Of a stretch of 64,000 nucleotides of DNA, positions 3,458 through 20,522 are shown piece by piece. The stretch is from Candidatus Eisenbergiella merdavium (GTDB lineage: Bacteria; Bacillota; Clostridia; Lachnospirales; Lachnospiraceae): the NCBI GenBank assembly GCA_019119595.1, contig DWWS01000027.1, positions 1 to 64,000 on the forward strand, written 5' to 3'. Under the pieces are notes generated by a model. It had not been told where the DNA came from, did no database searches, and was given only the letters and a program-made list of their open reading frames with translations. Position 1 is the first letter of the stretch. Each line of letters begins with the position of its first letter. The translations under genes were made by a program, and so were the position numbers.

Positions 3458-4930
3458 TTAAAACACAAGTTGGTCAAACAGCTGCCTGCAGGCCGGATAA
3501 ATCTGCTTAAACTGCTGATATCTTGCCTCATATTTTGCCGCGAGAGCCGCGTCCGGCATCTCCGTTCCGGCCGCCTTCACCAGCCGATCCGCCGCGTCCT
3601 CCACGCTCGCGAACGCGCCGCAGCCCACCGCCGCGAGGATCGCGCCGCCAAGACCGGGGCCTTCCTCGCTCTCGATCTGCTCCACCGGAATGTTCAGTAC
3701 GTTGGCCATGATCTTTCTCCAGAGCGGACTCCTGGCCCCGCCTCCGCAGATCCTCGTTTTCTCGATCCGGATCCCCTGTGACTTTGCCACCTCAAAGGAA
3801 TCCCGCAGAGCAAAGGCAACGCCCTCCAGCACCGCCTGCGTCATGTCGGCGCGCGTGGTATCCATCGTCATGCCGATGAAGGTGCCTCTCGCGTTCGGAT
3901 TGTTGTGGGGCGAGCGCTCTCCCATCAGATAAGGAAGGAAAAATACCCGGTTTTCTCCCAGCTCCCCGATCCGGGCCTGCTCTCCCGCATAATCGGAGGT
4001 TTTCAGGATGTCGTCCATCCACCATTTGTTGCAGGAAGCAGCGCTGAGCATGCAGCCCATCAGGTGCCAGCTCCCGTCCGCGTGCGCGAAGGCATGCAGC
4101 GCATTGTTTTCATCCACGCAGAAATGCTCTGAGGAAATGAAGATCGTCCCGCTGGTTCCCAGGGAAATGTTGCATTTTCCGTCGCCCACGGTTCCCGTTC
4201 CCACGGCTGCCGCCGCATTATCCCCGGCTCCGGCGATCACCTTCACATTCTCAGATATCCCAAGCTCCTTCGCGATCTGCGGAAGCACGCAGCCCACCGC
4301 CTCATAGCTTTCGTATACCTTCGCAAGCTGCTCCGGGCGGACGCCGCAGATCTCACACATTTCCTTCGACCAGCAGCGGTTCTTCACATCGAACAGAAGC
4401 ATTCCCGAAGCGTCCGAAACGTCGGTGCAGTGCGCGCCCGACAGCCGGTAGGCCAGATAATCCTTGGGCAGCATGATCTTCGCGATCGCGTCAAAATGCT
4501 CCGGCTCATGCTTTTTCACCCAGAGAAGCTTCGGCGCGGTAAAGCCCGCAAACGCGATGTTCCCCGTATATTCGGAAAGCTTTTCCTTTCCGATCACCTG
4601 ATTCAGATAATCCGTTTCCTCCCCGGTCCTGCCGTCGTTCCACAAAATGGCCGGACGGATCACCTCATCCCTTTCATTCAGGATCACCAGCCCGTGCATC
4701 TGCCCGCCGAAGCTGATGCCCTCCACCTGCGACCGGTCGCAGTCCGAAAGCAGCTCCTTTAATCCCGCCATCGTCTGCTCAAACCAGTCCTCCGGACGCT
4801 GCTCCGACCAGCCCGGCTGCGGAAAAAACAGAGGGTATTCCTTCGATACCACCCTGTGTATGACTCCCCTTTCATCCATCAGAAGCAGCTTTACCGCAGA
4901 GGTTCCAAGGTCCACTCCTATGTACAGCAT
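3458..4930 (-). CDS. xylB: xylulokinase-type FGGY carbohydrate kinase
   Basis: The 490-residue product is a full-length FGGY sugar kinase. The N-terminal IGVDLGTSAVK phosphate-binding segment, the GGQMHGLV substrate region and the WNDGRT signature are typical of xylulokinase, and the second actin-like domain carries the adenosine-binding GGGARSPLW segment near residue 400. It transfers phosphate from ATP to a ketose in the cytoplasm. ATG 4930 is supported by GGGAGG six bases upstream. It is the first gene of the operon with DUF4867 and the isomerase, driven by a strong promoter with a nearby palindrome. D-xylulose is the usual substrate of close relatives, but with a fucose-isomerase-like partner another ketopentose or deoxyketose such as ribulose or fuculose remains possible. 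Confidence 0.88.
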   Translation of the reverse strand: MLYIGVDLGTSAVKLLLMDERGVIHRVVSKEYPLFFPQPGWSEQRPEDWFEQTMAGLKELLSDCDRSQVEGISFGGQMHGLVILNERDEVIRPAILWNDGRTGEETDYLNQVIGKEKLSEYTGNIAFAGFTAPKLLWVKKHEPEHFDAIAKIMLPKDYLAYRLSGAHCTDVSDASGMLLFDVKNRCWSKEMCEICGVRPEQLAKVYESYEAVGCVLPQIAKELGISENVKVIAGAGDNAAAAVGTGTVGDGKCNISLGTSGTIFISSEHFCVDENNALHAFAHADGSWHLMGCMLSAASCNKWWMDDILKTSDYAGEQARIGELGENRVFFLPYLMGERSPHNNPNARGTFIGMTMDTTRADMTQAVLEGVAFALRDSFEVAKSQGIRIEKTRICGGGARSPLWRKIMANVLNIPVEQIESEEGPGLGGAILAAVGCGAFASVEDAADRLVKAAGTEMPDAALAAKYEARYQQFKQIYPACRQLFDQLVF

Positions 4931-4971
4931 GCTGCGCCTCCCTTCCGTTTTCATCACCTGTTATCCTGTTT

Positions 4972-4985
4972 CGTGCCCGTGCACG
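4972..4985. promoter_or_regulatory. candidate LacI-family operator
   Basis: CGTGC-CCGT-GCACG is an inverted repeat with perfect 5-bp arms lying just downstream of the -10 box of the kinase promoter, where a repressor would block transcription. The adjacent LacI-type gene is the obvious candidate regulator; binding is inferred. Confidence 0.4.
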
Positions 4986-4993
4986 TTATCTTT

Positions 4994-5022
4994 ATCATAA
5001 TTGATTTTCATTAAAAAATCAA
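4994..5022 (-). promoter_or_regulatory. promoter of the sugar operon
   Basis: Minus strand: TTGATT, 17-bp spacer, TATGAT. The spacer lies within an AT-rich inverted repeat (5000-5023) with 9-bp arms ATTGATTTT/AAAATCAAT, which could be a second operator. Confidence 0.65.
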
Positions 5023-5205
5023 TCCGATTTTCCACTTTTTCCATTTTTCTGTTTCTTTGTTACTTTTTACTGATTTTTGCTGTATTTGACTGCACTTTCT
5101 GCTTTTTCCCCTGTGTTTTCTCTCTGTTATCTCTCTGCTTTCCCTCTGTTTTACGCCGTCTGACCGGCGTGCAGTGCCCGGACACATTTTGTACGCGGTT
5201 TCAAA

Positions 5206-5234
5206 TTGACTTTGCTTCCGGTTTATGTTAGGGT
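5206..5234 (+). promoter_or_regulatory. possible promoter of the LacI-type regulator
   Basis: TTGACT is followed after 17 bases by TAGGGT, a poor -10 box. It is placed about 75 bases before the TTG start codon. The 377-base divergent region 4931-5307 otherwise holds only the operon promoter and its palindromes. Confidence 0.4.
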
Positions 5235-5307
5235 AAAAGAAAAAACTGACGCGGCAGTCCGGCCGAATGCCGGCTGCTGCGATCTGACACAGACGGGAGG
5301 GGTCGGA

Positions 5308-6324
5308 TTGGCTACCATCAAAGAAATCGCAGAACTTGCCGGTGTTTCCAGAGGCACCGTGGACCGCGTCCTCAATAACCGCGGCGCGGTCAGCGAACAG
5401 ACCGCCCGCAAGGTGCTGGATATCGCCCGCGCGCTCCAATACCGTCCCAATCGGGCCGGCATCGTTCTCGCCGCCCGCAAAAGAAATCTGAAGATCGGCA
5501 TCATTCTTTTCGACAACGGCAATCCTTTTTTTGACGAGGTGCTGGACGGCGTGCAGAAAAAGGCCCGTGAGCTGGAGGACTACAACTGCTGCGTCAGCGT
5601 ACGCCGCGTGGGCTTCAATCCGGATGCCCAGCTTGCCGCCATGGAGGAAATGGCTGCCGACGGCGCCTCCGGCCTCATCCTCTCCCCCTGCAACGATCCC
5701 GGGATCCGGGAAAAGATCAACGAGCTGGACGCCAGGGGAATCCCTGTCATCACCACCAACACGGATATCGAAAACTCCGCCCGACTGGCCTATGTCGGCT
5801 GCGATTTTTACCGCTCCGGCCAGACTGCCGCCGGCCTCATGCACCTGATCGGAAAGCCGCCTGTCCGCGTCGGGATCATCACCGGCTCCTCCCATGTCCT
5901 CTGCCACACCGACCGGATCGCCGGCTTTCAGGATCAGATCCGCTCCCACTATCCCGACATCCGCATTCTGGACACCAGGGAAAACAGCGACGACGAATTT
6001 GAAAGCTATTCCAACACCCTCGCCATGCTGCAGGAGCGCCCGGACCTCAACGCCCTCTATTTCGCCGCCGGCGGCGTTTACGGCGGCTGCCGGGCCATCC
6101 TCGCATCCGGCCGCAGCGACATCACCGTCATTTCCTGCGACAAGGTTCCCACCACCCGGGAAATGCTCCTGAACGGCGTCATCGACGCCACCATCTGCCA
6201 GCAGCCCGCCGTTCAGGGAAGCCTCCCCCTCGAGCTTCTCTTCACCCACCTCGCCACCGGCCAAAAACCCGCCCGTGAATATAACTATACCTCTATAGAT
6301 ATCAGGATACGGGAAAATGTCTAG
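5308..6324 (+). CDS. LacI family transcriptional regulator
   Basis: A 338-residue regulator beginning at TTG 5308, chosen because GGGAGGGG lies just upstream and the typical LacI N-terminus (ATIKEIAELAGVSRGTVDR) follows at once. Residues 1-55 are the helix-turn-helix and hinge; the remainder is a periplasmic-binding-like sensor domain (KIGIILFDNGNPFFDEV, then TTNTDIENSARLAYVGCD and a GGVYGGCRAI segment). The longer reading frame upstream does not fit the family. It is transcribed away from the kinase-DUF4867-isomerase operon and most likely represses it, with the sugar or its phosphate as inducer. A strong terminator follows immediately. Confidence 0.9.
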   Translation: MATIKEIAELAGVSRGTVDRVLNNRGAVSEQTARKVLDIARALQYRPNRAGIVLAARKRNLKIGIILFDNGNPFFDEVLDGVQKKARELEDYNCCVSVRRVGFNPDAQLAAMEEMAADGASGLILSPCNDPGIREKINELDARGIPVITTNTDIENSARLAYVGCDFYRSGQTAAGLMHLIGKPPVRVGIITGSSHVLCHTDRIAGFQDQIRSHYPDIRILDTRENSDDEFESYSNTLAMLQERPDLNALYFAAGGVYGGCRAILASGRSDITVISCDKVPTTREMLLNGVIDATICQQPAVQGSLPLELLFTHLATGQKPAREYNYTSIDIRIRENV

Positions 6325-15028: not shown

Positions 15029-15964
15029 TTACACAAAGCTGATGACCGCATCCTTCGGCGCCTTCGTCTTCACCACGCTGCTGGCGTGCAGCACGGGGCC
15101 TTCTCCGCCGTACTCCGCCCAGTATTCCTTTTCCACCCGGGCCGTCACCTTTACCCAGTCCTGCTCCTTAAACGCCTCCGCGCCCTTATAGACGCAGACA
15201 TACCCGAGGAAAGCCATGTCGTCCGCACAGCAGGTCATCGCCATCCGTCCCGGAATGAAATGATCCTTCGGATAGCCGTCCGGCTTCATCACCATGGCGG
15301 TGAACTGGATATTTTTTCCCACGTAGCGGTCCAGATTGTCCAGGGAATCGATATACCAGATTCCGTAGCCCATATCGTCCAGCACGATGGGATCGCTGTT
15401 TAGATCAAACGGCAGATCCTCCTCAAACATCTGATTGATCTCGCCGTTTTCATCCTCAAAAATGATCTCTCCCTGCTGGTTCACCGCCTTCACATTCCTG
15501 CGGTAGCCCGCCAGCGCCTGCTCGTCCAATCCGTCGCAGCGGTTGAAAATGATCATCTCGGACTTGCGGAGCATCTCGGCCAGAAGAGATTTCATATTGG
15601 TGAAATAGGCCGCGAAGGTGGAAGCGTCGATGGTCGTGATCTGCTGCTCCACCCTCCAGTGCCAGGGCAGCTTCATATTTTTAAAATTCCACATGCCGTT
15701 GTACTCGATGATGATCCGCTCCGGTTTATGCTTTTTTTCCAGCTCCAGCAGATGCTCGGGCGTGAAATCCTCCTCCCGCTCCACCGGCTCCAGCACGGAA
15801 TTGCTCCTTTTTAAAAGCGCGGGCGAATATTCGTTTTCGCCGTCCTCGCACAGCACGATCAGCGTTTTTCCCTTGATCTGAAAATAGGGCTGATCCAGCG
15901 TATAGGTGATAAACTCCGTCTTTCCGCTCTCCAGAAAGCCGTTGATGATATATACAGGTTTCAT
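15029..15964 (-). CDS. CobW/P47K-family GTPase (second copy)
   Basis: A 311-residue G3E-family GTPase. Walker A is INGFLESGKTEF (residues 6-17), the acidic IIIEYNGMW segment serves as the switch region and NRCDGLDE supplies the guanine-specificity motif. Unlike the neighbouring copy, it has Cys only singly near residue 40 (LCEDGENEY) and no CxCC metal motif, so it may act with a different metal or as a partner. The C-terminal 110 residues resemble an OB-like domain found in related two-gene GTPase pairs. ATG 15964 is supported by GGAGG five bases upstream. It follows the His-rich CobW gene after a 46-base gap and precedes the S4 gene. Roles as metallochaperones supplying zinc under limitation fit the context; this is inference. 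Confidence 0.8.
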   Translation of the reverse strand: MKPVYIINGFLESGKTEFITYTLDQPYFQIKGKTLIVLCEDGENEYSPALLKRSNSVLEPVEREEDFTPEHLLELEKKHKPERIIIEYNGMWNFKNMKLPWHWRVEQQITTIDASTFAAYFTNMKSLLAEMLRKSEMIIFNRCDGLDEQALAGYRRNVKAVNQQGEIIFEDENGEINQMFEEDLPFDLNSDPIVLDDMGYGIWYIDSLDNLDRYVGKNIQFTAMVMKPDGYPKDHFIPGRMAMTCCADDMAFLGYVCVYKGAEAFKEQDWVKVTARVEKEYWAEYGGEGPVLHASSVVKTKAPKDAVISFV

Positions 15965-16010
15965 ATCTACCTCCATACCGAAGCGTTTCCATATCGGGGC
16001 ATTGCTCCGA

Positions 16011-17219
16011 TCAGACAGTGAACAGCTCCTTCAGGGCATCCTCCTTCAGTCCGGAGCCGATGACGCAGAATTTTCCGGTCACATCCGGCTTGCCTTCCCG
16101 CACATTGCTTTCCTCCGGCACATAGTCGAAGTATACCCAGGTGCCGTCTCCGGCGGGAACCATTCCCTTCGCCCGGAGCACAAAGCCGTAGGTTTTCTCG
16201 TCCTCCAGCGCTTTCAGGATGCTCTCCACCTTTTCTCTGGAATAGGATGCGGGCGTTTCCATGCCCCAGCTCGTGAACACCTCATCCGCATGATGATGGC
16301 CGTGATGATCATGATCGTGGTGATGGCCGCAGCTGCAGACTTCTCCGTGCTCGTGGTCATGATGGTGCTCATGCTCGTGATGATGGTCATGATCATGGTG
16401 ATGCTCACAGCCGCAGGTCTCCTCGTGGTCGTGATGATGATGCTCATGGTGGTCATCATCGTGATGGTGCTCGCAGCAGCAGGCTTCTCCGTGATCATGG
16501 TCATGATGGTGCTCATGCTCGTGATAGTGCTCGTCATCATGATGATGGTCGTGATCATGGTGATGCTCATGCTCCCCTTCCTGCGCAGCCAGCACTTCCC
16601 TCATCAGCTCCTTCTCCAGCTCGGAGCCGTTTTCGATGGTTTTCAGGATCTCCTTTCCGTCAAGCTGGGCAAGAGGGGTGGTGATCAGCGCGGCTCTGCT
16701 GTTGTGCTCGCGGATCAGCTCCACGGCCTGCTGCACCTTCTCCGGGCTCGCCACATCCGTCCTGCTCAAAATGATCGTTCCCGCATGCTCGATCTGATTG
16801 AGGAAAAATTCTCCGAAGTTTTTGATATACATTTTGCACTTGGAAGCATCCACCACCGCAACGGCGCTGTTTAAGGTGATCTCCTCTCCCATGTCCACAT
16901 TTTCAACCGCCTTCATCACGTCCGAAAGCTTGCCCACGCCGGAGGGCTCGATCAGCACGCGGTCCGGATGGTAGGTCTCCATGACCTCCTTCAGTGAGGT
17001 TCCGAAATCTCCCACCAGGGAGCAGCAGATACAGCCCGAATTCATTTCCTTGATCTCGATCCCGGATTCCTTCAGAAAGCCGCCGTCAATGCCGATCTCT
17101 CCAAACTCATTCTCGATCAGGACCACCCGGCTTCCCGCCAGCGCATCCTTCAGAAGCTTCCGGATCAGCGTGGTCTTTCCCGCTCCCAGAAAGCCCGATA
17201 CAATATCAATCTTTGTCAT
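16011..17219 (-). CDS. CobW-family metallochaperone GTPase with His/Cys-rich repeat segment
   Basis: A 402-residue G3E GTPase of the COG0523/CobW family. Walker A is GFLGAGKTT (9-17), the CxCC metal-binding motif is GCICC (62-66), and LIEPSGVG and LSRTD complete the nucleotide site. Residues about 218-313 are an extraordinary His/Asp/Glu-rich stretch holding roughly 50 His and three CxC-type motifs (ACCCE, TCGCE, VCSCG) in a threefold repeat of about 31 residues. The C-terminal CobW domain (TSWGMETP onward) follows. ATG 17219 is chosen because AAAGG lies eight bases before it; ATG 17225 is too close. As first gene of the metal operon it probably stores or delivers zinc, or buffers it when zinc is scarce. 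A hairpin precedes the ribosome binding site. Confidence 0.88.
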   Translation of the reverse strand: MTKIDIVSGFLGAGKTTLIRKLLKDALAGSRVVLIENEFGEIGIDGGFLKESGIEIKEMNSGCICCSLVGDFGTSLKEVMETYHPDRVLIEPSGVGKLSDVMKAVENVDMGEEITLNSAVAVVDASKCKMYIKNFGEFFLNQIEHAGTIILSRTDVASPEKVQQAVELIREHNSRAALITTPLAQLDGKEILKTIENGSELEKELMREVLAAQEGEHEHHHDHDHHHDDEHYHEHEHHHDHDHGEACCCEHHHDDDHHEHHHHDHEETCGCEHHHDHDHHHEHEHHHDHEHGEVCSCGHHHDHDHHGHHHADEVFTSWGMETPASYSREKVESILKALEDEKTYGFVLRAKGMVPAGDGTWVYFDYVPEESNVREGKPDVTGKFCVIGSGLKEDALKELFTV

Positions 17220-17225
17220 TTCCAT

Positions 17226-17249
17226 TACCTTTCCGCCGCCGAAGGCGGC
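17226..17249 (-). repeat. GCCGCC-TTC-GGCGGC hairpin plus GGAAAGG leader cassette
   Basis: The minus strand reads GATGCCGCCTTCGGCGGC then GGAAAGG immediately before the start codon of the CobW gene. It is identical in the hairpin to the copy at 42527-42541 and closely similar to those at 61402 and 42620. Confidence 0.8.
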
Positions 17250-17292
17250 ATCTAAATCAAAACACAAACGTCTGTTTTCCGGCACTCCTCTT

Positions 17293-17321
17293 ATTTTGCC
17301 CCGTTTTTCCGCTCTTGTCAA
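17293..17321 (-). promoter_or_regulatory. probable promoter of the metal operon
   Basis: Minus strand: TTGACA, 17-bp spacer, CAAAAT. No clear Zur-type palindrome (TAAT-N-ATTA) was found around it, so its regulator cannot be named. Confidence 0.5.
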
Positions 17322-17469
17322 CCGCCTGGAGCCCGTATTTTCCGTTCTGCCGAAGCACTTTTCGTACGACTGAGCAGTAAATGCGCAGGCCTGGCCGAAC
17401 TGATACGTTCTGTGACCAACCGGCAAACTGGCCGGCTGCATGCCGGACTGTTTGTCGGGCTGTTATATT

Positions 17470-18285
17470 TTATGGCTGGCCGCCATAGGCATCCGTCTCG
17501 CGGCGTATCCCGCAGACCTCCTCGCAGGCATCGTTTACCAGCTCCATGGACAGGGCCGCCGTCTGCTCCCCGGTCCCTCCGAGCACCAGCCCCACAAAGC
17601 TGCCGCAGCCGTCAAAGACCCCGGCGCCGGAGGCGCCCGCCTGTGCGTCACAGGCAAGGATCATCACGTCACTGCCGAATTCCTCCCGGTACCAGGCCCT
17701 TTCCAGAAGGGAGGCGTCCAGAATCAGGTCCGCGCAGCCATCCTGGGTGGATATGGCCGCAAACAGGACGCTGGCTTCATCCATTGTATCAAATCTGCGC
17801 TGATGCAGGTTCACAAGGGCAGGCAGCTCCTCCGCAGGCTGTGGTCTGCCAGACGGCGCTTCGGCAGAATCTGCCAAAGCAGGCTTCCAGACGGCTTCCA
17901 CAAAGCCTACATCCAATGAATCACTGACGCCGACGTTGTTTCCCTGCGCAATGGTTCCGTCATAAAAAACAACGCGCAGAACCTCTCCCTCTTCCAGAAG
18001 ATGTCCTGCGGTCGCTATGATCAGCCGGCCGTCCTGCTGATCCCACACGACGCCGCTTCCATAATATTCCGCCTCTTTTCCCGCCACATCCAGCCGGACA
18101 CAGCAGCGCGGAACCATCTGCTTCGCTTCCTGCGTCCGTTCTCCGTCCAGCGCCTTCAGAACCGGAAAGACCTGCGCGCAGCCGGCAGACAAAAGCAGGG
18201 AAAACAAAACCGTCCCCGCCGTCAGACATTTGAAACCTTTCATGAGCAGAGAACGGACGGCGCGGAATCTGTGCTTTTCCTTCAT
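17470..18285 (-). CDS. trypsin-like serine protease lipoprotein
   Basis: A 271-residue secreted protein with the chymotrypsin-fold triad: His95 in ATAGHLL, Asp125 in LDVGFVE and Ser219 in AGASGAGVF. The signal peptide ends with SAGC (Cys36), so it is probably a membrane-anchored lipoprotein. The nucleophile motif GASGAG differs from the usual GNSGGP or GDSGGP, so activity or specificity may be unusual. There is no PDZ domain, unlike the HtrA protein at 29 kb. ATG 18285 follows AAGGA; the ATG at 18243 lacks a site. It lies alone between the metal operon and rnpB. The function in envelope proteolysis is inferred. Confidence 0.75.
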   Translation of the reverse strand: MKEKHRFRAVRSLLMKGFKCLTAGTVLFSLLLSAGCAQVFPVLKALDGERTQEAKQMVPRCCVRLDVAGKEAEYYGSGVVWDQQDGRLIIATAGHLLEEGEVLRVVFYDGTIAQGNNVGVSDSLDVGFVEAVWKPALADSAEAPSGRPQPAEELPALVNLHQRRFDTMDEASVLFAAISTQDGCADLILDASLLERAWYREEFGSDVMILACDAQAGASGAGVFDGCGSFVGLVLGGTGEQTAALSMELVNDACEEVCGIRRETDAYGGQP

Positions 18286-18341
18286 TTTCAATCCTTCATC
18301 CGGCTTCGGGAGTCCTTTTCTCTTTTTTTAAAAAGAAAAAT

Positions 18342-18727
18342 GAGCAGGACTGTAAGCCGGGTTATGTCGTGAATGATCATCTATCCAGGACTGCCGTTGC
18401 CGGCAGCCTCAAGCAACCTACCTGAAAGCAGGCCGGGCAAGCCTGTAGCTTTCTGTTTGGTCTTGCTTCGGATGGGGTTTACATGTGCCCCGCCTGTTAC
18501 CAGACGGGCGGTAGTCTCTTACTCTGCCTTTCCACCCTTACCAGGCCCGAAGGCCCTTTCCGGGGCTTTCGTTTCCGAAAGCTCCGGGGCGGTTTATTTC
18601 TGTTGCACTGGCCTTGGAGTCGCCTCCACCGGACGTTATCCGGCATCCTGCCCTGTGAAGCCCGGACTTTCCTCACCTGCCGCCTCCATGGGAGGACGGA
18701 CAGCCGCGATCATTCATCCTGCTCATT
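18342..18727 (-). ncRNA. rnpB: RNase P RNA
   Basis: The minus strand carries the universal RNase P core GAGGAAAGTCCGGGCTTC near the 5' end and the matching 3' core CATAACCCGGCTTACAGTCC near the 3' end. The ends GAGCAGGAT and AGTCCTGCTC pair as stem P1. The length of about 386 bases and the internal GC-rich hairpins fit a type A bacterial RNA, the ribozyme that trims tRNA 5' ends. A strong promoter lies just upstream and a T-rich tract follows. The ends are approximate to a few bases. Confidence 0.95.
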
Positions 18728-18797: not shown

Positions 18798-18826
18798 TTG
18801 ACTTTTTTATTCTACTACGATAGAAT
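18798..18826 (+). promoter_or_regulatory. promoter of the BlaI/M56 operon
   Basis: TTGACT, 17-bp spacer, TAGAAT. The -10 box is the right arm of the first operator dyad, so repressor and polymerase cannot bind together. Confidence 0.85.
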
Positions 18827-18855
18827 GAAACCACAATATTCTACTCCAATAGAAA
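18809..18855 (+). promoter_or_regulatory. two tandem BlaI-type operators
   Basis: Two copies of a dyad with a shared half-site: ATTCTACTACGATAGAAT at 18809-18826 and ATTCTACTCCAATAGAAA at 18838-18855. Their starts are 29 bases apart. Arms TTCTA/TAGAA are conserved in both. The first overlaps the -10 box, the second covers the early transcribed region up to the ribosome binding site. BlaI/MecI repressors bind such paired dyads; here the gene for one is in the same operon, implying autoregulation. Confidence 0.8.
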
Positions 18856-18869
18856 GGAGATATCAAAAC

Positions 18870-19064
18870 ATGCGCACAATGCTTTTTCTCTGTATCCTTT
18901 CCCTCCTTTTCCCTTTTTCACGGGAGAAGCCAACGCATTACGAAAGCCATAATATCACTATGGACGTGGTCGGCATGAGCTGTGAAGACGCCGTAAGGGT
19001 TCTGTCAGAGGCCGGTTATCATGTGGTGCATACCGCATATATCACCGGTCAGGCTCCGAAATGA
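18870..19064 (+). CDS. small secreted protein with a PASTA-like segment
   Basis: A 64-residue protein beginning at ATG 18870 after an AAAGGAGA site, first gene behind the BlaI operator. Residues 3-16 are a hydrophobic signal or anchor segment. Residues 31-54 (DVVGMSCEDAVRVLSEAGY and on) match the PASTA pattern of a conserved V-GM followed by an amphipathic A-LxxAG helix, as found in penicillin-binding proteins and PknB kinases. The same pattern occurs at the end of the M56 protein two genes downstream. The protein could present a muropeptide- or beta-lactam-binding module outside the membrane, as ligand sensor or sensor partner. This is inference, and the short length means only half a PASTA fold is present. 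Confidence 0.65.
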   Translation: MRTMLFLCILSLLFPFSREKPTHYESHNITMDVVGMSCEDAVRVLSEAGYHVVHTAYITGQAPK

Positions 19065-19116
19065 GGATTGATGCGGATGGCATGCCCCGACCGCATGCTC
19101 CGAAATGAGGAATATC

Positions 19117-19476
19117 ATGAAGATTTTTGAAAGCGAGCTTCGCATTCTCGACATACTCTGGCGTTTCGGCCCCCTTTCCGCATCGGAAACGGCCAAAAGG
19201 GCGGAGGCGGAATACGGCTGGAGCGTAACGACCACTTATACCGTGATCAAGAAGTGTATTTCCAAAAAGCTGGTCAGGCGCGAGGATCCGGGCTTTCTCT
19301 GCCAACCTCTCGTCACCAGGCATCAGGTGCAGGCAGACGAGGCGCAGACGCTGCTTGGCCGTCTGTTTAACGGGAAGATAGACTGTCTGGTGGCTTCCCT
19401 TGCCAGCGAAAACTCCATCACAGCGGATGAGATCGAGAATCTGAAGAAGATCATTGAGGATTACGAGGCAAAATAA
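19117..19476 (+). CDS. blaI: BlaI/MecI/CopY family repressor
   Basis: A 119-residue winged-helix repressor of the Penicillinase_R family (LRILDILWRFGPLSASETAKR followed by the recognition helix WSVTTTYTVIKKCISKKLVRR). The C-terminal 45 residues form the helical dimerisation part. ATG 19117 is chosen since TGAGGA lies five bases upstream; the ATG at 19105 has none. In known systems the repressor is inactivated when an M56 membrane protease senses its signal; here that partner is the next gene, 23 bases downstream. The operator pair at the operon promoter is its probable binding site. Confidence 0.92.
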   Translation: MKIFESELRILDILWRFGPLSASETAKRAEAEYGWSVTTTYTVIKKCISKKLVRREDPGFLCQPLVTRHQVQADEAQTLLGRLFNGKIDCLVASLASENSITADEIENLKKIIEDYEAK

Positions 19477-19499
19477 AAAGCTTCTGAAGGGAGTCTCCC

Positions 19500-20522
19500 A
19501 TGCTGCTTTCCATGACCGCAGGCGGAAGTCTGCTGACCATTTGCTATCTGCTTCTGCGGCTTTTTTTGAAGGACCGCAGCCGGAATCTCTGCAGGAGGCT
19601 GTCTTTTTTCCCGGTTCTCCGGCTCCTGCTTCCCGTTTCCATCCCCTGCCTGCCGCCGCTTGACGGCCTTGCGGCCGGAAGCCCGGAGCGGTTTGCGTCC
19701 TTCCGGTTTTGGCTGCCCGGCTATCTGACGATATGTGCCGTTCTGTTTTTCTTCCTGTTCATCCGGCACTTTATTTTTCTGAAAAAATATGACGACGCGC
19801 TTCCGGCCAGCGATCCCCTTATTCAGGAATGGCTTGCGGGGAAAAAAGGCGCTGTTACCTTTACCGGGAAAGTATCCGGGCAGGCCGCCGTTCCCTTTAC
19901 CGTGAAAGCATCCGGGCAGGCCGCCGTTCCCTTCGTCTATGGGCTGTTCCATCCGGTCATCCTTCTTCCGGCCGGAATGAGGAAGGACGATCCCTGCCTT
20001 TTCTGTCTGCTTGAGCATGAGTATACCCACATCCTTCACCGGGATATCTGCCTGAAATACCTGGCGGGAATGGCGCTGTGCGTCCACTGGTTCAATCCGC
20101 TCTGCTGGATCCTTTTTTTCATCATCGATCAGGATATCGAATTCGCCTGTGACGAAACCGTCGCCGCAAAAATGAACCGCGCGGAAAAGGCGGAATATGC
20201 CAGACTGCTTTTGTCCTTTTCCCAGCCTTCCCACATAAGGGCGGGCCTGTGCCAAAGCTCCGGGGGCCGCAGGCTGGAAAAGCGCATTCGGGCAATCTTA
20301 AAGGAAGCAGGCGGCAAATCTGCCGGGCACCTGCTTCCCCTGAAAAAAATCACCCTCTGCACTTTTCTTCTGATGGCGTTTCTTTTGATCCCGTCGTTTT
20401 TTACCTGTTCCGATGCGCGTTCCGAAAGCCAGACTGTCCCGGACGTGGAAGGAATGGCGCTGGAGGACGCCCGGAACCTGCTGGAGGCCCGGGGTCTTTC
20501 CTGCTTCAGCCTTACACCCTGA
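19500..20522 (+). CDS. BlaR1-like M56 membrane metalloprotease with C-terminal PASTA-like segment
   Basis: A 340-residue M56-family protein. Hydrophobic helices lie at about 5-22, 35-50, 73-95 and 284-302. The zinc protease motif HEYTH is at 173-177 in the cytoplasmic loop, with CDE at about 217-219 as the third ligand region, and the family segment VYGLFHPVILLP at 146-157. Just before it a 12-residue unit (VSGQAAVPF) is tandemly duplicated by a 36-bp repeat. The large extracellular penicillin-sensing domain of BlaR1 is absent. Instead, after the last helix and a Cys, residues 313-336 (VPDVEGMALEDARNLLEARGL) form a PASTA-like half domain. It probably cleaves or triggers loss of the adjacent repressor when a cell-wall ligand is sensed. 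The 3' end overlaps the convergent nucleoside kinase gene by 11 bases. Confidence 0.82.
   Translation: MLLSMTAGGSLLTICYLLLRLFLKDRSRNLCRRLSFFPVLRLLLPVSIPCLPPLDGLAAGSPERFASFRFWLPGYLTICAVLFFFLFIRHFIFLKKYDDALPASDPLIQEWLAGKKGAVTFTGKVSGQAAVPFTVKASGQAAVPFVYGLFHPVILLPAGMRKDDPCLFCLLEHEYTHILHRDICLKYLAGMALCVHWFNPLCWILFFIIDQDIEFACDETVAAKMNRAEKAEYARLLLSFSQPSHIRAGLCQSSGGRRLEKRIRAILKEAGGKSAGHLLPLKKITLCTFLLMAFLLIPSFFTCSDARSESQTVPDVEGMALEDARNLLEARGLSCFSLTP
19860..19932 (+). repeat. 36-bp tandem duplication inside the M56 gene
   Basis: Two imperfect copies with period 36 (TTTACCG repeats at 19860 and 19896; CCGGGCAGGCCGCCGTTCCC at 19877 and 19913). It inserts twelve residues in frame just before the conserved segment that precedes HEYTH. 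Confidence 0.8.

Follow-up and report, generated by a model that had tools for sequence, protein, structure and literature searches.

At positions 18798-20522 of the window, by which we mean the whole analysed stretch of 64,000 nucleotides (contig DWWS01000027.1, positions 1 to 64,000, forward strand, to which all coordinates refer), lies an apparently self-regulated BlaI-M56 cassette of three genes, encoding in this order a mini-protein, a BlaI repressor and an M56 membrane metalloprotease. A sigma-70-type promoter, TTGACT-17-TAGAAT, was assigned by its match to the consensus at 18798..18826 of the plus strand. Two putative operators, recognized from the sequence pattern on the same strand, are palindromic and belong to the type TTCTA-N6-TAGAA: operator 1 (TTCTACTACGATAGAA, 18810..18825) covers the spacer and the -10 box, and operator 2 (TTCTACTCCAATAGAA, 18839..18854) is located downstream of the likely start site. 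An earlier, sequence-only reading of this DNA had proposed two matched operators, one of them over the -10 box, and a self-regulated operon; the two sites are as it described, and their location on the operon's own promoter supports self-regulation. The single operator pattern is not rare in the genome itself, with four sites versus five for the reversed control; the close pair occurs once, versus none for the control. Among 397 genomes of the family, the pair was found in 14 and its reversed control in three.

That reading had also placed a BlaI gene and an M56 gene here as an operon. Both genes are present, with Pfam matches above cut-off, but the first gene of the operon had been overlooked. 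It is a 64-aa ORF (18870..19064, plus strand) with a strong candidate for its ribosome-binding site, AAAGGAG, at 18853..18859, and it encodes an N-terminal hydrophobic segment followed by a PASTA-like part (residues 32-61). No clear signal-peptidase site was visible by eye, and the mini-protein may be anchored in the membrane. That the ORF is non-coding was considered and rejected on account of the ribosome-binding site, the PASTA match and a counterpart in another genus (locus L162, below). A direct repeat, GCTCCGAAATGAGGA, occurs at 19053 and 19097 (19053-19111); its first copy contains the stop codon of the small ORF, and the second precedes the BlaI start. The BlaI gene (19105..19476, plus strand; PF03965, E 2.1e-19) passes the curated cut-off of the winged-helix family Penicillinase_R with 70.4 versus 22.6 bits; of its possible starts, 19117 has the better ribosome-binding site.

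The third gene (19500..20522, plus strand) encodes an M56 protein of 340 aa (PF05569, E 7.1e-28, 98.1 bits, cut-off 31). The zinc motif HEYTH occupies residues 173-177 (20016..20030), and H173, E174 and H177 are identical in all 35 aligned M56 proteins. The last membrane helix was placed at about residues 284-303 (20349..20408) from the sequence and from the AlphaFold model, where a helix spans residues 286-300. In a Foldseek search with this model (35 sequences, pLDDT 79.7), the best PDB matches were six chains of S. aureus BlaR1 entries (8exq, E 4e-6), with TM-scores by query length of 0.40-0.50. The protein is a BlaR1-type protease with a BlaR1-like predicted fold, in agreement with the HEYTH motif and the BlaR1-like membrane topology noted in the sequence-only reading. 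Equally borne out is its claim that the large penicillin-binding sensor is missing: the 36 residues that follow the last membrane helix (305-340) contain neither SxxK nor a KTG/KSG motif. The protein reaches 58.9 bits against the NCBIfam model blaR1_generic, for which the cut-off is 400, and no beta-lactamase or low-affinity PBP output gene was found in the operon. When 35 related M56 proteins were scanned with Pfam (E 0.05), none matched a penicillin-binding or beta-lactamase family, and the idea that the gene is a truncated penicillin-sensing BlaR1 was rejected on this count of 0/35. Single members of the alignment of 35 M56 proteins (A4) match the FtsX extracellular domain (E 8.1e-12) or DUF5780 (E 1.1e-32), so that M56 proteins of the group carry varied extra domains.

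In place of the sensor, a PASTA-like half domain had been proposed. A PASTA domain is formed by a helix packed on a beta-sheet and has a full length of about 65 residues. Residues 312-334 of the M56 tail (20433..20501, plus strand) match positions 2-24 of the 64 positions of Pfam PASTA (PF03793; E 0.00087), and the small ORF matches model positions 5-44 (E 0.0012); both scores, 19.6 and 19.2 bits, respectively, are below the gathering score of 23.2. Hence the profile similarity claimed for the M56 C-terminus was found, but below the cut-off and over about a third of the model. Structure prediction did not yield a PASTA fold. In the AlphaFold model the tail forms a helix at residues 321-330 only, with low confidence, the model of the small ORF is poor (4 sequences, pLDDT 60.8), and no PASTA sheet was predicted in either. 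Among the 35 related M56 proteins scanned at E 0.05, the window's M56 alone matched PASTA. The half domain is thus partly confirmed: the two ends are PASTA-like in sequence, and the fold itself is unsupported by prediction. As judged by profile, they resemble the first part of the PASTA domains of the PknB/PrkC kinases and of PBP2x; unlike these, they score below the Pfam cut-off, lack the second part of the domain, and are carried by an M56 protease and a mini-protein rather than by a kinase or a transpeptidase.

A similar pair was found in a genome of another genus of the family (G281), at locus L162. There, on the minus strand, a BlaI gene (5127-5483) is followed by an M56 gene (4047-5117) and then by an 81-aa ORF (3753-3998) with a signal-peptide-like start. 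The last 55 residues of this ORF align to the end of the M56 protein (BLAST E 1.8e-7), and both proteins end in GFSYIVK. The operators, TTCTACTGTGATAGAA and TTCTATTACAGTAGAA, are of the same type as those of the window. Taken singly, neither L162 protein matched Pfam PASTA. Within the genus of this genome (3 genomes), the L162-type M56 was found in that genome only. A profile was then built from four ends, the window M56, the window ORF and both ends of L016 (the same place as L162), with no known PASTA sequence included. Against the PDB sequences, its five best matches were all PknB PASTA constructs (2kui, E 3.6e-5, then 6.6e-4, 7.2e-4, 0.022 and 0.058), and the following matches, at E 0.34 and up, were mostly unrelated.

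The two ends within the window are less easily aligned to each other. By BLAST, the M56 tail and the small ORF gave no match at E<0.1, nor at E<=1e-3. Direct alignment gave a score of 40 with 10 identities in 18 positions, a score reached by one of 5000 shuffles and by four of 8467 ORFs of other loci; one of the 1165 frames of the window outscored the small ORF against the tail (43). Furthermore, when the other three ends were combined into a profile, the frame of the small ORF reached only E 6.7. The window pair is therefore weaker than the other pairs; it rests on the two PASTA matches, the direct alignment and the shared layout. One could argue that the PASTA resemblance is due to chance or to convergence of short helices, the two ends being unrelated, since neither match reaches the gathering score, the small ORF is not recovered by the three-end profile, and neither L162 protein matches PASTA singly. 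Two sub-threshold matches to one family within one operon, the return of PknB PASTA constructs from the PDB and the strong L162 pair nevertheless make this explanation highly improbable.

The surroundings of the operon bear on whether the tail is complete. On the left, the operon is flanked by the RNase P RNA gene rnpB (18337..18725, minus strand; Rfam RF00010, 303 bits), and on the right the 3′ end of the M56 gene overlaps, at 20512..20522, the 3′ end of a convergent gene of the PRK/uridine-kinase family (PF00485), as deduced from the kinase 3′ ends of same-genus relatives. The stop codon of the kinase gene occupies 20512-20514, with the conserved end of that gene beyond, and the M56 gene ends at 20522, its last codons and stop sitting on kinase DNA; the tail may therefore have been trimmed at an insertion junction. 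Twelve same-genus relatives were compared. The gap between rnpB and the kinase gene is 54-212 bp in six of them (L377-L381, L383), 712 bp in L382 and about 1 kb in L385 and L386, while in L384, L387 and L388 rnpB falls outside the stretch examined. At E<=1e-4, none of the 12 stretches resembled BlaI, M56 or the small ORF at the nucleotide level. No close orthologues were found, the full M56 gene being present in one of 13 genomes of the genus, its own. Among 80 relatives retained out of 202, the best segment identity was at most 45%, and a plasmid search gave 42 records, all under 60% identity and none covering 80%. One same-genus relative carries, at another place, two separate pieces of an M56 gene (L117 1404-1529 and 1534-1755; L305 9035-9386); no tail was found on these pieces, and its 14-kb stretch contained no BlaI match and no TTCTA operator. 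Within the window's M56 gene, a 36-bp tandem duplication (19850-19933, 2.3 copies, 91% match) creates a 12-residue repeat ahead of a strand of the protease domain, and in the 35-protein alignment the protein departs from the consensus at five of 18 nearly invariant positions.

These features could be those of a decaying guest, that is, an operon which entered between rnpB and the kinase gene and whose M56 end was cut at the junction, leaving a tail without function. The short rnpB-kinase distance in six of the 12 relatives, the missing similarity in all 12, the M56 stop on kinase DNA, the duplication and altered positions, and the broken M56 of the relative would all fit. However, the M56 reading frame runs uninterrupted for 340 codons and retains HEYTH as well as 13 of the 18 nearly invariant positions, and the promoter, the operators and the ribosome-binding sites look intact. 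Moreover, the L162 M56 tail, with its own stop, ends within two residues of the window's end point, which argues that the window tail is close to its natural length. We consider decay unlikely.

The layout was not restricted to the window and L162. At operator-pair loci with the same BlaI type, the M56 proteins carry other outer domains, and each is accompanied by a separate protein having that domain. Five distinct loci combine the TTCTA pair with the window's type of BlaI (window, G281, G046, G250 and G179; G149 repeats G046, with the same operon), and all five have a copy protein. Four of these proteins are encoded within the operon, among which that of the window is the weak case, and that of G179 is encoded elsewhere in the genome. 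This trans copy (E 4.6e-21 to the M56 outer domain) stands behind TTCTATCGTAGTAGAA and TTCTACTACGATAGAA, which are operators of the same type; the operator before the trans copy in L161 is the identical 16-mer to operator 1 of the window. G281 had been noticed for its PASTA-like tail and several other copy-bearing loci were picked by operator pattern, which entails a selection bias.

In a broader survey, each M56 tail was set against the remaining ORFs of its locus, a copy being counted at E<=1e-5 and the expectation being that copies are no nearer than in other loci. It comprised 226 tails in 208 M56 clusters and was confined to M56 proteins that have the HExxH and E..[CAS][DE] signature and a tail of at least 15 aa; loci at the same places as longer ones (L177-L206, L163, L171-L176) were left out of the counts. 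Nine of the 208 clusters had a copy in their own locus versus 0.33 expected (4/81, 1/40, 2/24, 1/60 and 1/3 by set), and 10 of 208 if L162 is added, which had been left out since the M56 profile picks up the end of its small ORF (E 2.9e-5). In the BlaI group near that of the window, five of 44 tails had a copy at this threshold versus 0.28 expected, whereas in a more distant BlaI group the count was 0 of 39 versus 0.04 (L158, the same operon as L157, was left out of this comparison). An M56 profile search of the order gave a match in 67 of 392 genomes, from which 40 further loci were taken, one with a copy (L364). Operator-pair matches with another BlaI type provided three testable M56 clusters, one of them with a copy (L297), and at some operator-pair matches (L296, L298, L302) no BlaI or M56 match was found beside the sites.

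The remaining 198 of the 208 clusters had no copy within the stretch examined; since about 3 to 15 kb were covered per locus, distant copies are missed. No copy was found in the stretches of L207, L208 and L209 either, in which BlaI is close (185-189 bits) and the operators differ by one mismatch. A second operator pattern, pairs of ACTAY-N3-RTAGT, was used to look for trans copies in 43 genomes and gave no match, known loci included, so that this search tests little. The copies in L211 and L242 are related, and L112 and L113 come from one genus; the 10 clusters are therefore not 10 independent events. A separate pair of sites, GACTACTATGATAGTC and GACTATCATAGTAGTC, accompanies the L211 copy. 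The BlaI-M56-copy operon at L157 8485-10118 and L158 1108-2741 is common to two genera and adjoins a gene for a phage-type integrase (PF00589, E 7.1e-17) and a short ORF with a helix-turn-helix (PF12728), which suggests a mobile element.

Taken together, the sequences suggest that the cell makes a stand-alone copy of the tip of its own sensor, and the window seems to be a small example of a layout that recurs, with a BlaR1-type sensor accompanied by a separately encoded copy of its outer tip. The sequence-only description was largely right and its interpretation is partly supported, the proposed binding of muropeptides or beta-lactams by the tail being conjectural; the more interesting feature is this stand-alone copy of the sensor's outer end, met here in its smallest form. 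With the overlooked 64-aa protein at the head of the operon, which has a similar part, the picture is no longer that of a shortened sensor alone, but of a sensor joined by a separate copy of its outer tip.

We tentatively favour a self-regulated cassette in which the M56 protein senses through its PASTA-like tail and the mini-protein shares the ligand, and damps or executes the response. For repression, cleavage, induction, the ligand and the role of the copy, we infer the following scheme. In the absence of a signal, BlaI would occupy both operators and block the promoter. Once the outer tail of M56 encounters its ligand, which is probably some component of the envelope, for instance a precursor or fragment of peptidoglycan, BlaI would be cut by the protease and the operon switched on; by analogy with BlaR1, an envelope signal sensed by the tail would in this way relieve BlaI repression of the operon. 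The mini-protein, with the same kind of outer end, would meet the same ligand beside the membrane and damp or execute the response, by likeness to the role of beta-lactamase for BlaR1. Such a small protein offers little room for an enzyme, which makes binding, as a decoy, a buffer or a partner, its likeliest role.

Several elements of this scheme have known parallels. According to PMC9834060, BlaR1 cuts BlaI directly. Like the BlaR1/BlaI and MecR1/MecI systems of Staphylococcus, the cassette has a BlaI-family repressor, a protease with a predicted BlaR1-like M56 fold and operators on its own promoter. Unlike them, it has no class-D beta-lactamase-like sensor, and no beta-lactamase or PBP2a gene in the operon; its sensor is reduced to a PASTA-like part, and a mini-protein with the same kind of part is encoded in the operon. 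The sensor of BlaR1 resembles a class-D beta-lactamase (PMC7593790), so that one ligand is handled by both sensor and output. As described in PMC9834060 for S. aureus, BlaR1 is cut by SpsB between the last helix and the sensor, whereas in the window a separate gene encodes such an outer piece. The logic is also that of the RsgI anti-sigma factors of Clostridium thermocellum, for which PMC4711584 describes outer modules (CBM3, GH10) of a kind also present in the secreted proteins that they control; RsgI differs in being an anti-sigma factor, not an M56 protease, and in carrying carbohydrate-binding modules instead of a PASTA-like part.

The features of the copies allow a different role for the mini-protein. 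The copy proteins are apparently exported; an N-terminal hydrophobic stretch is present in all of them (a loose count, with L162 judged from the sequence), and three match a lipobox pattern. The copies in L162, L160/L161 and L112 align beyond the outer part, into the last membrane helix of M56. Such a copy might act on the receptor, taking one place in a BlaR1-type dimer and holding the protease off, as a built-in inhibitor rather than a ligand binder. This would be in line with the domain-swapped dimer of BlaR1 described in PMC9834060, and with a window mini-protein that may stay anchored for want of a clear signal-peptidase site. Some other copies, however, look like lipoproteins or secreted proteins and would keep no matching membrane helix, and we regard inhibition as doubtful. 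It is still less probable that the mini-protein is incidental and that muropeptides or beta-lactams are sensed by the PASTA-like tail on its own, as a functional shortened sensor. Besides the profile similarity, a proposal touched on in PMC9834060 speaks for it, namely that PknB with its PASTA domain might make up for the absent sensor of one BlaR1 homologue, apparently the M. tuberculosis protein; against it, the tail covers about 23 of 64 PASTA positions, below threshold and with no sheet predicted, and the pairing with a small exported protein recurs in a second genus.

The reading with a shared ligand may extend beyond the window. With more reserve, we consider it possible that the BlaI-M56 systems constitute a wide class with free exchange of the sensor's outer domain, and with a recurring subset where a co-regulated exported copy serves as decoy or effector and sets the threshold of the response; the window, with its half-PASTA peptide pair, would be the smallest form. 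If the exported copy shares the ligand of the sensor, each copy would point to the signal and the output of its system, much as beta-lactamase points to those of BlaR1, and would be a soluble tool with which to identify the ligand. An M56 protease with a PASTA-like tail would also allow a minimal test of the ability of cell-wall pieces to operate a BlaR1-type switch, an idea already touched on for the sensorless BlaR1 homologue (PMC9834060). Among the literature matches listed, no title or beginning of an abstract dealt with an M56 protein with a PASTA tail or with exported copies of M56 outer domains.

On the left side of the operon, a gene for a trypsin-like protease (17470-18288, minus strand; PF13365, E 1.1e-10) adjoins rnpB, and DNA similar to it was found in the rnpB stretch of four relatives. 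Further to the left, two CobW-family genes (PF02492) lie on the minus strand at 16011-17441 (E 8.6e-40) and 15029-15976 (E 7.9e-12); one product has a long histidine-rich stretch and the other a DUF1980 C-terminal domain, and the pair is possibly involved in metal handling.
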